Of a stretch of 51,052 bases of DNA, positions 2,893-22,204 are shown in pieces. The stretch is from Patescibacteria group bacterium (lineage in GTDB: Bacteria; Patescibacteriota; JACPGU01). The stretch covers positions 1 to 51,052 of the forward strand of contig JAQULF010000006.1 in assembly GCA_028718745.1 (NCBI GenBank), read 5' to 3'. Each line of letters opens with the position of its first letter. Position 1 is the stretch's first letter. A model generated the notes under the pieces. That model ran no database searches and had not been told where the DNA came from. It was given only the letters and a program-made list of their open reading frames with translations. The position numbers and the translations under genes were made by a program.

Positions 2893-4361
2893 TTATAGGA
2901 TTGGAAATCCATTCGCAGTTAAACACGAAGTCCAAGATGTTTTGTGGTTGCGATAATAATGCCGAAGGGAAAGAGCCAAATAGTGTGACCTGTCCGGTTT
3001 GTATGGGAATGCCGGGAACTTTGCCGGTGATTAATAAAAAAGCATTGGAATGGACATTTTTGCTAGGTTTGGCATTAGGCGCGAAAATCGCCGACCAATT
3101 TAATTTTGAAAGAAAACAGTATTTCTATCCTGATTTACCAAAGGGCTATCAGATCACTTCCCAGACCACACCGCCTTTAATCGGGGGGCATTTAGATTTA
3201 GAAATTGATGTGGACGAATCTCGACATCCGACATCAAGAAATTCCCTTACCATCGAGCATGTGCATCTCGAAGAAGATGCGGGGAAATTAATTCATGCCG
3301 GAGATCATTCTTTGGTTGATTTGAACCGCGCCGGAACGCCGCTTTTAGAAATTGTAACCAATCCGGATTTTCGTTCACCGCTTGAGGCGAAACTTTTTAT
3401 GCAGGAGTTGCAGCGCATCCTTCGCTATCTTGGCATTTCTTCGGCAGATATGGAAAAAGGGCATCTGCGTTGCGATGGCAATATCTCTTTGCGGCCAGTC
3501 GGACAAAAAGAATTCGGTAAAAAAGTTGAGATAAAAAATATAAATTCTTTCTCATCGCTTGAACGCGCTTTGGAATTTGAAATCAAAAGACAGACGGAAA
3601 TGCTGGATAATGGGGAAACAATTGAGCAGGAAACTCGCGGTTGGGATGACGCAAAAAACATTACGGTTTCCCAGCGCAGTAAAGAAATGGCGCACGATTA
3701 CCGCTATTTTCCCGAACCGGATCTGCCACCAGTTGTCCCTGTCAAAGCTTTTGACCTTGAAAATCTTAAGAAACAAATTCCGGAATTACCAGCGCAAAAG
3801 AGGAAAAAATATGTAGAAGAGTTTGGTTTAGGAAAAACGGAAGCGGATATTTTGGTGGGCGATATGGGTTTGGCAAATTATTTTGAAGAATCGGTGGATA
3901 TGGTAAAAACAAGCGAGGGTTCACAAAATATAATTAAAAGAATTGCCAACCTTATTCTTGGTGATGTCTTGGCTTATCTTAACGCTAATAATCAGAATAT
4001 TCTTAATTTTAAAATCAACGAAGCTAATCTTTGGGATTTGGCAACAAAGCTTGAATCGGGAGAGATTAGCTCAAAAATCGGCAAAGAAGTCTTTATCGCT
4101 ATGGCGGAAACTGGAAAATCTGCCGATGAGATAATTTCTGAAAAAGGCATCAAGCAGGTTTCCGACACTGGCGAGCTGGAAAAGATAGTTAGTGAAATTA
4201 TTGCAGCCAATCAGGGTCAGGTTGAACAATATAGAAAAGATGTAGAGGCGAACGGCAGTTCGCCTATGCTCAACTGGTTCGTCGGTCAAGCCATGAAAGC
4301 AACAAAAGGCCAAGCAAATCCAGGAGTGGTGATGGAGGTTTTGAAGAAGTTGTTGGGATAA
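2871..4361 (+). CDS. gatB: Aspartyl/glutamyl-tRNA amidotransferase subunit B
   Basis: YEVVIGLEIHSQLNTKSKMFCGC, CPVCMGMPGTLPV, full-length 496 aa; overlaps the murI 3' end by 22 nt. Confidence 0.97.
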   Translation: MSDKYEVVIGLEIHSQLNTKSKMFCGCDNNAEGKEPNSVTCPVCMGMPGTLPVINKKALEWTFLLGLALGAKIADQFNFERKQYFYPDLPKGYQITSQTTPPLIGGHLDLEIDVDESRHPTSRNSLTIEHVHLEEDAGKLIHAGDHSLVDLNRAGTPLLEIVTNPDFRSPLEAKLFMQELQRILRYLGISSADMEKGHLRCDGNISLRPVGQKEFGKKVEIKNINSFSSLERALEFEIKRQTEMLDNGETIEQETRGWDDAKNITVSQRSKEMAHDYRYFPEPDLPPVVPVKAFDLENLKKQIPELPAQKRKKYVEEFGLGKTEADILVGDMGLANYFEESVDMVKTSEGSQNIIKRIANLILGDVLAYLNANNQNILNFKINEANLWDLATKLESGEISSKIGKEVFIAMAETGKSADEIISEKGIKQVSDTGELEKIVSEIIAANQGQVEQYRKDVEANGSSPMLNWFVGQAMKATKGQANPGVVMEVLKKLLG

Positions 4362-6004: not shown

Positions 6005-7018
6005 ATGAAATCATTTTGGTCCCTCGGGAATACTCGGGATAAACAAAAATTAGCTAAAGGCAAAAAGCCAATCGCTATTTTAGCGCCTATGTCGGGTGTG
6101 ACGGATTTTCCGTTTCGCGAGATATTGTGTGAAATTGGAAAGCCAGATGTGATTTTTACAGAATTTGTTTCGACGGAGATGATTTACCGTAGGGGCGCGG
6201 TTTCCGCGCCCGACAAAAAGGGCGGGGTGACCCCGCCCCTACAGTTACAATTTTCAAAAAAACAGCGCCCTATTGTTGTACAATTTTTTGGAAGCAGGCC
6301 GGAACAATTTGAGTATTGCGCCAAGTTAGCAGTTAAACTGGGTTTTGACGGGATAGATATTAATATGGGTTGTCCAGACAGGAAAGTGCAAAAACAAGGC
6401 GCCGGATCGGAATTGATCAAAAATCCCAAGTTAGCTGCCGAAATAATTCGCGCAGTCAAAAAAGGTTGTGGAGGGAAACTGCCGGTTTCGGTTAAAACCC
6501 GCCTCGGTTATAGAAAAAAGGATTTAGAATGGATTCGTTTTTTGCTGGAACAAGATTTGGATGCTCTCACCATTCACGGCCGAACCGCCAGCCAAGGCTA
6601 TGGCGGAGAAGCGGATTGGGAAATGATTGGCGAAGCGGTTAAATTGAGAAACAAAATGAAGTTAAAAACATTAATCATCGGAAATGGCGATGTGAAGGAC
6701 CTTTGTAGGGGCGCAATTCATTGCGCCCAATACGGAACGGATGGTTTTATGATTGGGCGGCAGATTTTGCATAATCCTTTTGTATTTTGTAGAGACGAAC
6801 GGCCGTTCGTCTCTACGGAAGAACGAATTAAGGTCGCGTTAAAGCATATAAAATTATTTGAAAAATTTTATGATTCTAAAAAGGATTTTAGTCTCATGAA
6901 AAAATATCTTAAAGCATATTTGTCGGGGACGGAGTTGAAGAAAGATTTGATGGAGGCGAAAACTATTAAGGAAGCGAGGAAGATACTAGAGAAAAAAGCT
7001 CTAAACTCTAAGTACTAA
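6005..7018 (+). CDS. dus: tRNA-dihydrouridine synthase
   Basis: APMSGVTDFPFR, GFDGIDINMGCPDRKVQKQGAGSEL, LTIHGRTASQGYGGEADW; carries three in-frame palindromic insertions. Confidence 0.93.
   Translation: MKSFWSLGNTRDKQKLAKGKKPIAILAPMSGVTDFPFREILCEIGKPDVIFTEFVSTEMIYRRGAVSAPDKKGGVTPPLQLQFSKKQRPIVVQFFGSRPEQFEYCAKLAVKLGFDGIDINMGCPDRKVQKQGAGSELIKNPKLAAEIIRAVKKGCGGKLPVSVKTRLGYRKKDLEWIRFLLEQDLDALTIHGRTASQGYGGEADWEMIGEAVKLRNKMKLKTLIIGNGDVKDLCRGAIHCAQYGTDGFMIGRQILHNPFVFCRDERPFVSTEERIKVALKHIKLFEKFYDSKKDFSLMKKYLKAYLSGTELKKDLMEAKTIKEARKILEKKALNSKY
6189..6242. repeat. REP double hairpin inside dus, in frame
   Basis: GTAGGGGCGCGGtttCCGCGCCC gacaaaaa GGGCGGGGTgACCCCGCCCCTAC; 54 nt. Confidence 0.9.
6705..6728. 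repeat. REP single hairpin inside dus, in frame
   Basis: GTAGGGGCGCAATtcATTGCGCCC. Confidence 0.85.
6789..6816. repeat. Perfect 28-bp palindrome inside dus, in frame
   Basis: GTAGAGACGAACGGCCGTTCGTCTCTAC. Confidence 0.9.
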
Positions 7019-11261: not shown

Positions 11262-12197
11262 TCATAACGCTCCTATTTTTATAATCGCAACGCGGTCTCT
11301 ATTTGCGAGGTCTTTTTTTATCTCAATTTGAGCTTCAGGGAATAGATCTTGGATATATTTCTTTAACGATTTAGCCTGGTTTTCTCCGATTTCGATAAAG
11401 ATTACTGTAGGGGTTTGATTTATCAAACCCTTTTGATACCACTTGGCTTTTATCTGTTGAAACATTTTTCGATATAAATCCAACCCGTCTCTTCCACCTT
11501 TGAGAGCTATTTGGGGTTCGTATTTTAAGGCCTTGGAGTCGGAAGATTTTAAGAGATTGCGCATATCATTATCTAGGTAGGGGAGATTGGCGACGATAAT
11601 ATCAGGTTTAAATCTGATATTTTGTAACAAATCTGATTTTTTGAATCTTGCATTCTGTAGGGAACAGGCATGCCTGTTCCCTACAATAATGCGATTTTTT
11701 CTAGCAACTCTTAAGGCTTTCTCTGATATATCAGCGGCGATTATTTTGATGTTTGGTAGATACTTTGCTAAGGTTAAGGCAATACAACCGGAGCCGGTGC
11801 CGAGTTCCAAAATCGTAGGGGCGCGGTTTCCGCGCCCTTTTTTGGGCGGGGTCACCCCGCCCCTACAGAAATCAATAACACTTTCCACCAATAACTCTGT
11901 TTCCGGTCTTGGTACCAACACATTTTTATTCACCATAAAATCTATCCCATAAAACTCTTTTGAACCTGTAAGATAGGCGATGGGGTAGTGTTTTTTGCGT
12001 TTAGCAATTAACTTTTTAAATCTGGTTAAGTTGTAAGTTGTAAGTTGTAAGTTGGGATTGGATAACATTTTTTCTCTATTAAAACCCAAAACGAATCCAA
12101 GCAAAATTTCTGCATCCAATCGTGCAGAATCTATTTTTACTTTCTTTAATTCATTTATTCCATAGTTTAGGGATTGTTTTAAAGAAATTGTTGACAT
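11262..12197 (-). CDS. prmC: Peptide chain release factor N(5)-glutamine methyltransferase
   Basis: LNYGINELKK, YPIAYLTGSKEFYGIDFMVNKNVLVPRPETELLVE, LELGTGSGCIALTLAK, VANLPYL; carries several in-frame repeats. Confidence 0.92.
   Translation of the reverse strand: MSTISLKQSLNYGINELKKVKIDSARLDAEILLGFVLGFNREKMLSNPNLQLTTYNLTRFKKLIAKRKKHYPIAYLTGSKEFYGIDFMVNKNVLVPRPETELLVESVIDFCRGGVTPPKKGRGNRAPTILELGTGSGCIALTLAKYLPNIKIIAADISEKALRVARKNRIIVGNRHACSLQNARFKKSDLLQNIRFKPDIIVANLPYLDNDMRNLLKSSDSKALKYEPQIALKGGRDGLDLYRKMFQQIKAKWYQKGLINQTPTVIFIEIGENQAKSLKKYIQDLFPEAQIEIKKDLANRDRVAIIKIGAL
11407..11430. repeat. REP hairpin inside prmC
   Basis: GTAGGGGTTTGATttATCAAACCC. Confidence 0.8.
11657..11684. repeat. Perfect 28-bp REP palindrome inside prmC
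   Basis: GTAGGGAACAGGCATGCCTGTTCCCTAC; same family as in the 21635..22204 gene. Confidence 0.92.
11815..11866. repeat. REP double hairpin inside prmC
   Basis: GTAGGGGCGCGGtttCCGCGCCC ttttt GGGCGGGGTcACCCCGCCCCTAC; near-identical to dus 6189..6242. Confidence 0.92.
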
Positions 12198-12219
12198 GAC
12201 GGAAAATGTTTAGTATAAT
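12191..12219 (+). promoter_or_regulatory. Sigma70-type promoter
   Basis: TTGACA-17 nt-TATAAT, perfect consensus; next + strand gene starts at 12481. Confidence 0.6.
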
Positions 12220-14580: not shown

Positions 14581-15282
14581 ATGTACAATAACGCATTCAG
14601 CAAACATTTAAACAAAAACAAAATGCCTTCATTAAGAATTCATCAAGAAAATGAAAACGCCCCGCACTTTGTTACTTTGACTACAATAGAATGGTTAAAT
14701 ATCTTTACCCAAAAAGAATATTTTAATTGCATAATAAAATGTCTGAAATTTTGTCAAAAGAATTTAGGGTTATTGCTTTATGAATATGTGATTATGACCA
14801 ATCATATTCATTTGATTGTACAAGCAAAAGATGGTTATAAATTATCACAAATTATTAGCAGTTTTAAGAGGCATACTACCAGAGAGACAATAAAGCTGTT
14901 GAAGCAAGACAGAAGGAAACATATTTTAGTACTATTACGCGGTGGTATTTATAATCCGAATGATCAAGGTAGGGTTCAGGGATTAAACCCTGAACCAACA
15001 TATAAAAATAAAGTTGGTTCGGACTTTAATGTCCGAACCTTACAAAAACAGAAACAATATCAAAAGTTCATACTTCAGGATTATAAAGGATCAATCTGGC
15101 AGGAAACTAATTATCCTGAATTAATTGAATCTGAAAAGTTTCTTCAACAAAAGATTGATTACATATATAATAATCCGGTTATCAAAGGATATGTAGATGA
15201 ACCACAACATTATCTTTATTCTTCTGCCAGTAACCGATATTTAGATGATAATTCAATCATTGAACTTGATAACTTGATTTAA
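14581..15282 (+). mobile_element. REP-associated tyrosine transposase (RAYT, Y1_Tnp family)
   Basis: FVTLTTIEWLNIF, YVIMTNHIHLIVQ (HUH), Y-containing helix; flanked by inverted REP hairpins. Confidence 0.88.
14969..15043. repeat. Paired REP hairpins inside the RAYT ORF
   Basis: GTAGGGTTCAGGGattaaaCCCTGAACC ... GGTTCGGACtttaatGTCCGAACCTTAC. Confidence 0.88.
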
Positions 15283-21634: not shown

Positions 21635-22204
21635 ATGCAAAACAAAAATAGAAAATCAATTAGGTTGAAAAAATATAATTATTCCGAACCGGGGGATTAT
21701 TTTGTGACGATCTGTACGAAAGATCGATCATGCATTTTAGGAGATGTTAGAGATGAAAAAATGATCTTAAATGAGATTGGCAATATTGTTGATAGATGTT
21801 TATTAAAAATTACCGAACATTTTTCCAATACAGAATTGGATATATTCCAAATAATGCCTAATCATATTCATTTTATATTGAGAATTCTAGAAGAGGATTT
21901 TATTGTAGGGAACAGGCATGCCTGTTCCTCATCAAAAAGCGATACAAATATCAGGAACAGCCATGGCTGTTCCCTACAAGAAGAAAAACGGCAGTATCAA
22001 AAATTACCTGTTATTGTTGGTTCATTTAAATCATCTGTTACCAGAATTTGTAAACAAAATAATTTATCAATCCAATGGCAGAAATCATACTATGATGAAA
22101 TTATCATAAACGAAAAACATTATTCCGAGGTTTATGACTATATTCTCTCCAATCCCCAAACCTGGGATCGGGACAGGAATAATCCTAAGAACTCTGACAA
22201 ATAA
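21635..22204 (+). mobile_element. REP-associated tyrosine transposase (RAYT), second copy/type
   Basis: YNYSEPGDYFVTICTKDR, IFQIMPNHIHFILRI (HUH), VTRICKQ...WQKSYYDEII. Confidence 0.9.
21905..21977. repeat. Paired REP hairpins inside the second RAYT ORF
   Basis: GTAGGGAACAGGCATGCCTGTTCC - 25 nt - GGAACAGCCATGGCTGTTCCCTAC. Confidence 0.92.

Follow-up and report, generated by a model that had tools for sequence, protein, structure and literature searches.

GTAG REP-like elements within dus and other genes of a Patescibacteria genome, probably spread by RAYT transposases with matching repeats in their own frames

Three GTAG-headed hairpins lie within a single dus gene of the analysed window (51,052 nucleotides from a Patescibacteria group bacterium), and these hairpins are probably GTAG REPs of several related families, which were spread by RAYTs and of which the frame-keeping copies survived. 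The feature is real and widespread and is best filed with the GTAG REP/RAYT kind, and in this genome the dus case by itself is nothing unusual. The most likely source of the elements is a family of RAYT single-strand transposase genes, whose own frames contain matching repeats. According to the proposed mechanism, RAYTs would spread GTAG REPs through the genome as single-stranded DNA, copies would enter genes at roughly the frequency given by the coding density, and the copies visible today would be those that kept the reading frame. Insertion would usually be accompanied by loss of neighbouring native sequence, so that the protein would grow less than the element. We infer the mobility of the elements through these RAYTs, and likewise the way in which native sequence is lost. 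Coordinates are listed in Table 1.

Table 1 Positions of the genes and elements in the window
Feature	Position	Strand	Remarks
dus (tRNA-dihydrouridine synthase)	6005..7018	+	337 aa; Pfam PF01207, E 5.7e-61; carrier of three elements
Element 1 of dus	6189..6242		54-bp dimer, two GTAG hairpins, heads outward; Dus residues 62-80
Element 2 of dus	6705..6728	+	24-nt single GTAG hairpin, stem 9, loop 2; residues 234-242
Element 3 of dus	6789..6816		perfect 28-bp GTAG...CTAC palindrome; residues 262-271, loop
prmC (release factor glutamine methyltransferase)	11265..12209	-	stop-to-stop frame, TIGR03534; carries two elements
28-bp palindrome in prmC frame	11657..11684
52-bp dimer in prmC frame	11815..11866		near twin of dus element 1
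RAYT-type transposase frame	21635..22201	+	HUH motif MPNHIH; placed by alignment with relatives matching Pfam Y1_Tnp
73-bp GTAG dimer inside RAYT frame	21905..21977		51 nt past start of HUH motif

The preliminary description had reported three in-frame hairpins of one GTAG-headed type, which add peptides to Dus. All three indeed begin with GTAG and keep to the frame of the Dus ORF, and the repeated entry of GTAG-headed REP-like elements into one conserved enzyme is supported; as a dimer, a single hairpin and a palindrome, however, they represent several types. Element 3 occurs eight times in identical form in the genome of 887,656 bp, seven of these copies lying elsewhere, and the exact 24-mer of element 2, after which the native sequence restarts at AATACGG, was found again at C1:114109 (L140). 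Compared with the orthologs of G002, G055 and G001 (the closest Dus ortholog is 63% identical), the net length change was +11/+9/+9 aa for element 1, 0/0/0 aa for element 2 and -1/-1/+1 aa for element 3, so the expected addition of a peptide holds for element 1 and not for the other two. In the predicted Dus structure (mean pLDDT 90.9) elements 1 and 3 were modelled in lower-confidence regions, mostly as loop, but element 2 was placed in a confident helix (predicted helix 233-243) and not in a surface loop. The missing length gain of elements 2 and 3 together with the helix position of element 2 indicates that native residues were lost too. Two Dus orthologs of other Patescibacteria (L080 and L028) carry different repeat-like inserts, LLGREPNLPPLIRGGREG and NTPPLDKEGERE, in the loop of element 3.

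That the peptides are conserved protein sequence with palindromic coding by accident is hardly credible. Element 2 does agree in length with the helix at this place and retains a glycine common to several orthologs; yet the elements recur as the same DNA in unrelated genes, read in two frames, their identical copies contradict such an origin, and Dus orthologs have different residues at these places instead of other codons for the same ones.

The first search pattern gave 18 sites and one control match and was then relaxed to GTAGRGRMN{12,42}KYCYCTAC, with the reversed pattern as control. The relaxed pattern matched 38 sites in the genome and none in the control, which rules out chance as the source of the elements and identifies them as a dispersed repeat, and the flanks of all 38 were examined. 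The counts come from pattern searches and from short stretches around located copies and are lower bounds, because off-pattern elements such as dus element 2 and the 73-bp dimer are missed. In the elements a short stem-loop carries GTAG at its 5' foot; the tag is unpaired in the dimer units and in dus element 2, and able to pair with CTAC in the 28-mers. A degenerate copy, GTAGAGGCGAACGGCAGTTCGCCTATGC, is located at position 4242 of the window.

Counting the coding copies, 29 of the 38 elements keep the frame of a recognised gene whose identity NCBIfam or Pfam confirmed. The carriers are polA (2), recG (3), mfd (2), pheS, alaS, prfB, tsaD, tsaE, mnmA, miaA, priA, a UvrD-like helicase, ksgA, rluA, rarA, 3-methyladenine glycosylase, comEC, reverse transcriptase (2), virB4, prmC (2), one RAYT and dus (two of its three, as element 2 is off pattern); the translation of the virB4 element is less sure, because it lies upstream of the profile match. 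The share in genes (76%) does not differ from the share of long open frames in the window (74-81%), and genes are thus neither visibly avoided nor preferred.

The palindromes contain no stop in two of the three reading frames. Furthermore, the dimer length was 1 mod 3 for 15 of 16 dimers inside genes of G000, G001 and G002, with dus element 1 as the sole exception, versus 3 of 7 outside genes (Fisher 0.017), a bias which fits selection for frame. This rule is informative for dimers only, because 28 bp is the length of nearly every single element in this genome; relatives also carry 29-bp single elements in genes.

The carrier genes were furthermore compared in length with the orthologs of G002, G001 and G055. 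Relative to the closest usable ortholog the median net gain was 2 aa of 10 for single 28-mers (n = 10) and 10 aa of about 19 for dimers (n = 8); mpg, mnmA, recG_a and dus element 2 are omitted from these medians, and the length tests are descriptive, because the closest usable ortholog was hand-picked for each carrier and four cases were left out. Judged from these sequence comparisons, native residues are evidently lost in most cases. Two simple models were rejected: insertion of a fixed length is ruled out by the scatter of the net gains, and the idea that one of the tags was already present as the target site agrees with rarA (+8 aa) but fails for polA and dus element 3.

Two other explanations of the small gain have to be considered. 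Native residues may have been trimmed away after a clean insertion, or the orthologs may have lengthened the same loops independently; this is a possibility to be taken seriously, it concerns the loss of native sequence only, and it is compatible with mobility by RAYTs. Loop lengths do vary among orthologs, and one recG site carries REP-like segments in G000, G001 and G002 alike, each with a different stem. On the other hand, the polA orthologs are all equal in length at the 28-mer site, and dus element 3 shows no net gain despite being probably young, as judged from its exact identity with a dispersed repeat.

Short-patch replacement via microhomology is a mechanism for single-stranded fragments, and the elements might have been copied into genes by such homology-poor recombination, with RAYTs unneeded. 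The net gain, which for both singles and dimers is far below the element length, and the replacement of 24 nt by dus element 2 at unchanged length would suit this explanation. We nevertheless regard it as unlikely in view of the association of the elements with a RAYT subfamily and the matching REPs inside its members, and a search of the open-access literature under the name of the mechanism gave no paper.

A protein search with the product of the frame at 21635-22201 revealed five members of one RAYT subfamily in this genome. The RAYT-like protein of the window has no Pfam Y1_Tnp match itself; among six aligned RAYT genes four reach the Pfam cut-off, one lies below it and the sixth is the window's own, and all six keep the HUH histidines. 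Across the phylum, 19 of 25 subfamily genes contain an in-frame GTAG hairpin (stem 9-10 bp) at most 200 nt after the HUH motif, compared to 13 of 510 background stretches of the window, real elements included; the genes were found by protein search and not by the hairpin, with a query whose REP-encoded peptide could bias the search towards genes with such a peptide. Each of the five RAYTs found in this genome contains a different internal REP, and in the surveyed flanks of L125 an identical 28-mer follows about 24 bp past the end of the frame. Around the eight Pfam Y1_Tnp loci, mostly of other subfamilies, only L136 has a REP nearby. The window also holds, at 14698-14913, the Y1_Tnp gene L132, which belongs to a different subfamily and contains a segment that its paralogs L129-L131 lack.

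The dispersed elements can be paired with these genes. Among 23 distinct dispersed elements, 11 match an arm of an own-genome RAYT in all 10 positions and about half have no exact arm match; the list omits transposase-internal copies with their own sequence, and the 28-mer of L292 also occurs as dispersed copies. The mean arm mismatch was 1.70 for own RAYTs versus 3.06 for foreign ones (500 draws, minimum 2.74). Own-genome arms beat foreign arms in G000, G002 and G039, and in G021 the two were not separated. In a sample of 191 genomes the subfamily was present in 17 of the 22 with at least three elements versus 8 of the 169 others; the Fisher value of 2.8e-14 treats related genomes as independent and overstates the case, because the cut at three elements was chosen after the counts had been seen and the counts include RAYT-internal copies. 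G001 (nine elements, one other Y1_Tnp) and G050 contain elements without a match to the subfamily. Taken together, the Y1_Tnp genes, the five-member subfamily and the own-arm matches support in this genome a link between the elements and RAYTs.

The RAYT-internal REP may be the source copy, but RAYT genes could also be victims rather than sources of REPs. The more far-reaching reading, in which each RAYT gene carries its cognate REP as source copy, transposase and substrate form one evolving unit and copies replace native sequence in frame, is rather doubtful. Were the internal REP such a source, the presence of five transposase-REP pairs in a single genome would open the way in which REPs spread to a direct test.

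GTAG REPs, including intragenic ones with carriers such as polA, uvrD and tRNA-modification genes, were described in 2013 by Di Nocera et al. (PMC3733652). These REPs share with the present elements the GTAG tag, the short stem-loop, the occurrence as singles and head-to-head dimers and the presence of some copies within ORFs, and differ in being mostly intergenic, compared to 29 of 38 in genes here. This location is not disqualifying, because intergenic is given there as the usual position and not as a criterion, and intragenic REPs are listed. The 28-mers differ from those REPs in carrying the tag on both strands, so that pairing through the tag is possible; Patescibacteria are not named in the sections of that paper used for the comparison. 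Cleavage and joining of single-stranded GTAG REPs by TnpA-REP proteins have been described in vitro (PMC8266576), and as in the RAYT/TnpA-REP systems (PMC2817692, PMC8266576, PMC6006769) HUH transposase genes are here associated with GTAG REPs. RAYT genes are described as flanked by REPs or other inverted repeats (PMC3733652), whereas here the REP sits past the HUH motif, inside the transposase frame. Searched by words, PMC2817692 and PMC6006769 gave no internal REPs, and a word search of the open-access literature, outside which many journals lie, found no paper that places a REP within a RAYT reading frame. With Rickettsia palindromic elements the present elements share in-frame palindromes within conserved proteins; the intragenic RPE-4 and RPE-6 of R. 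conorii belong to the CGTC class without known transposase (PMC3733652), in contrast to the GTAG of all elements here.

Intragenic GTAG REPs are thus already known, and the cognate REPs inside RAYTs are the part worth following. Short, putatively mobile palindromes reshape core enzymes of a reduced genome, at a rate in genes not visibly below that elsewhere. Further in-frame repeat-like peptides were noticed in other genes: KQESKKTKKQE, a second kind, in the unrelated L123 (uvrD-like) and L128 (pheS), and PAGRQG / ANPPAGGQE and PPASLCEALRAGE in L119 (recG) and L127 (mfd), which perhaps belong to other palindrome families.
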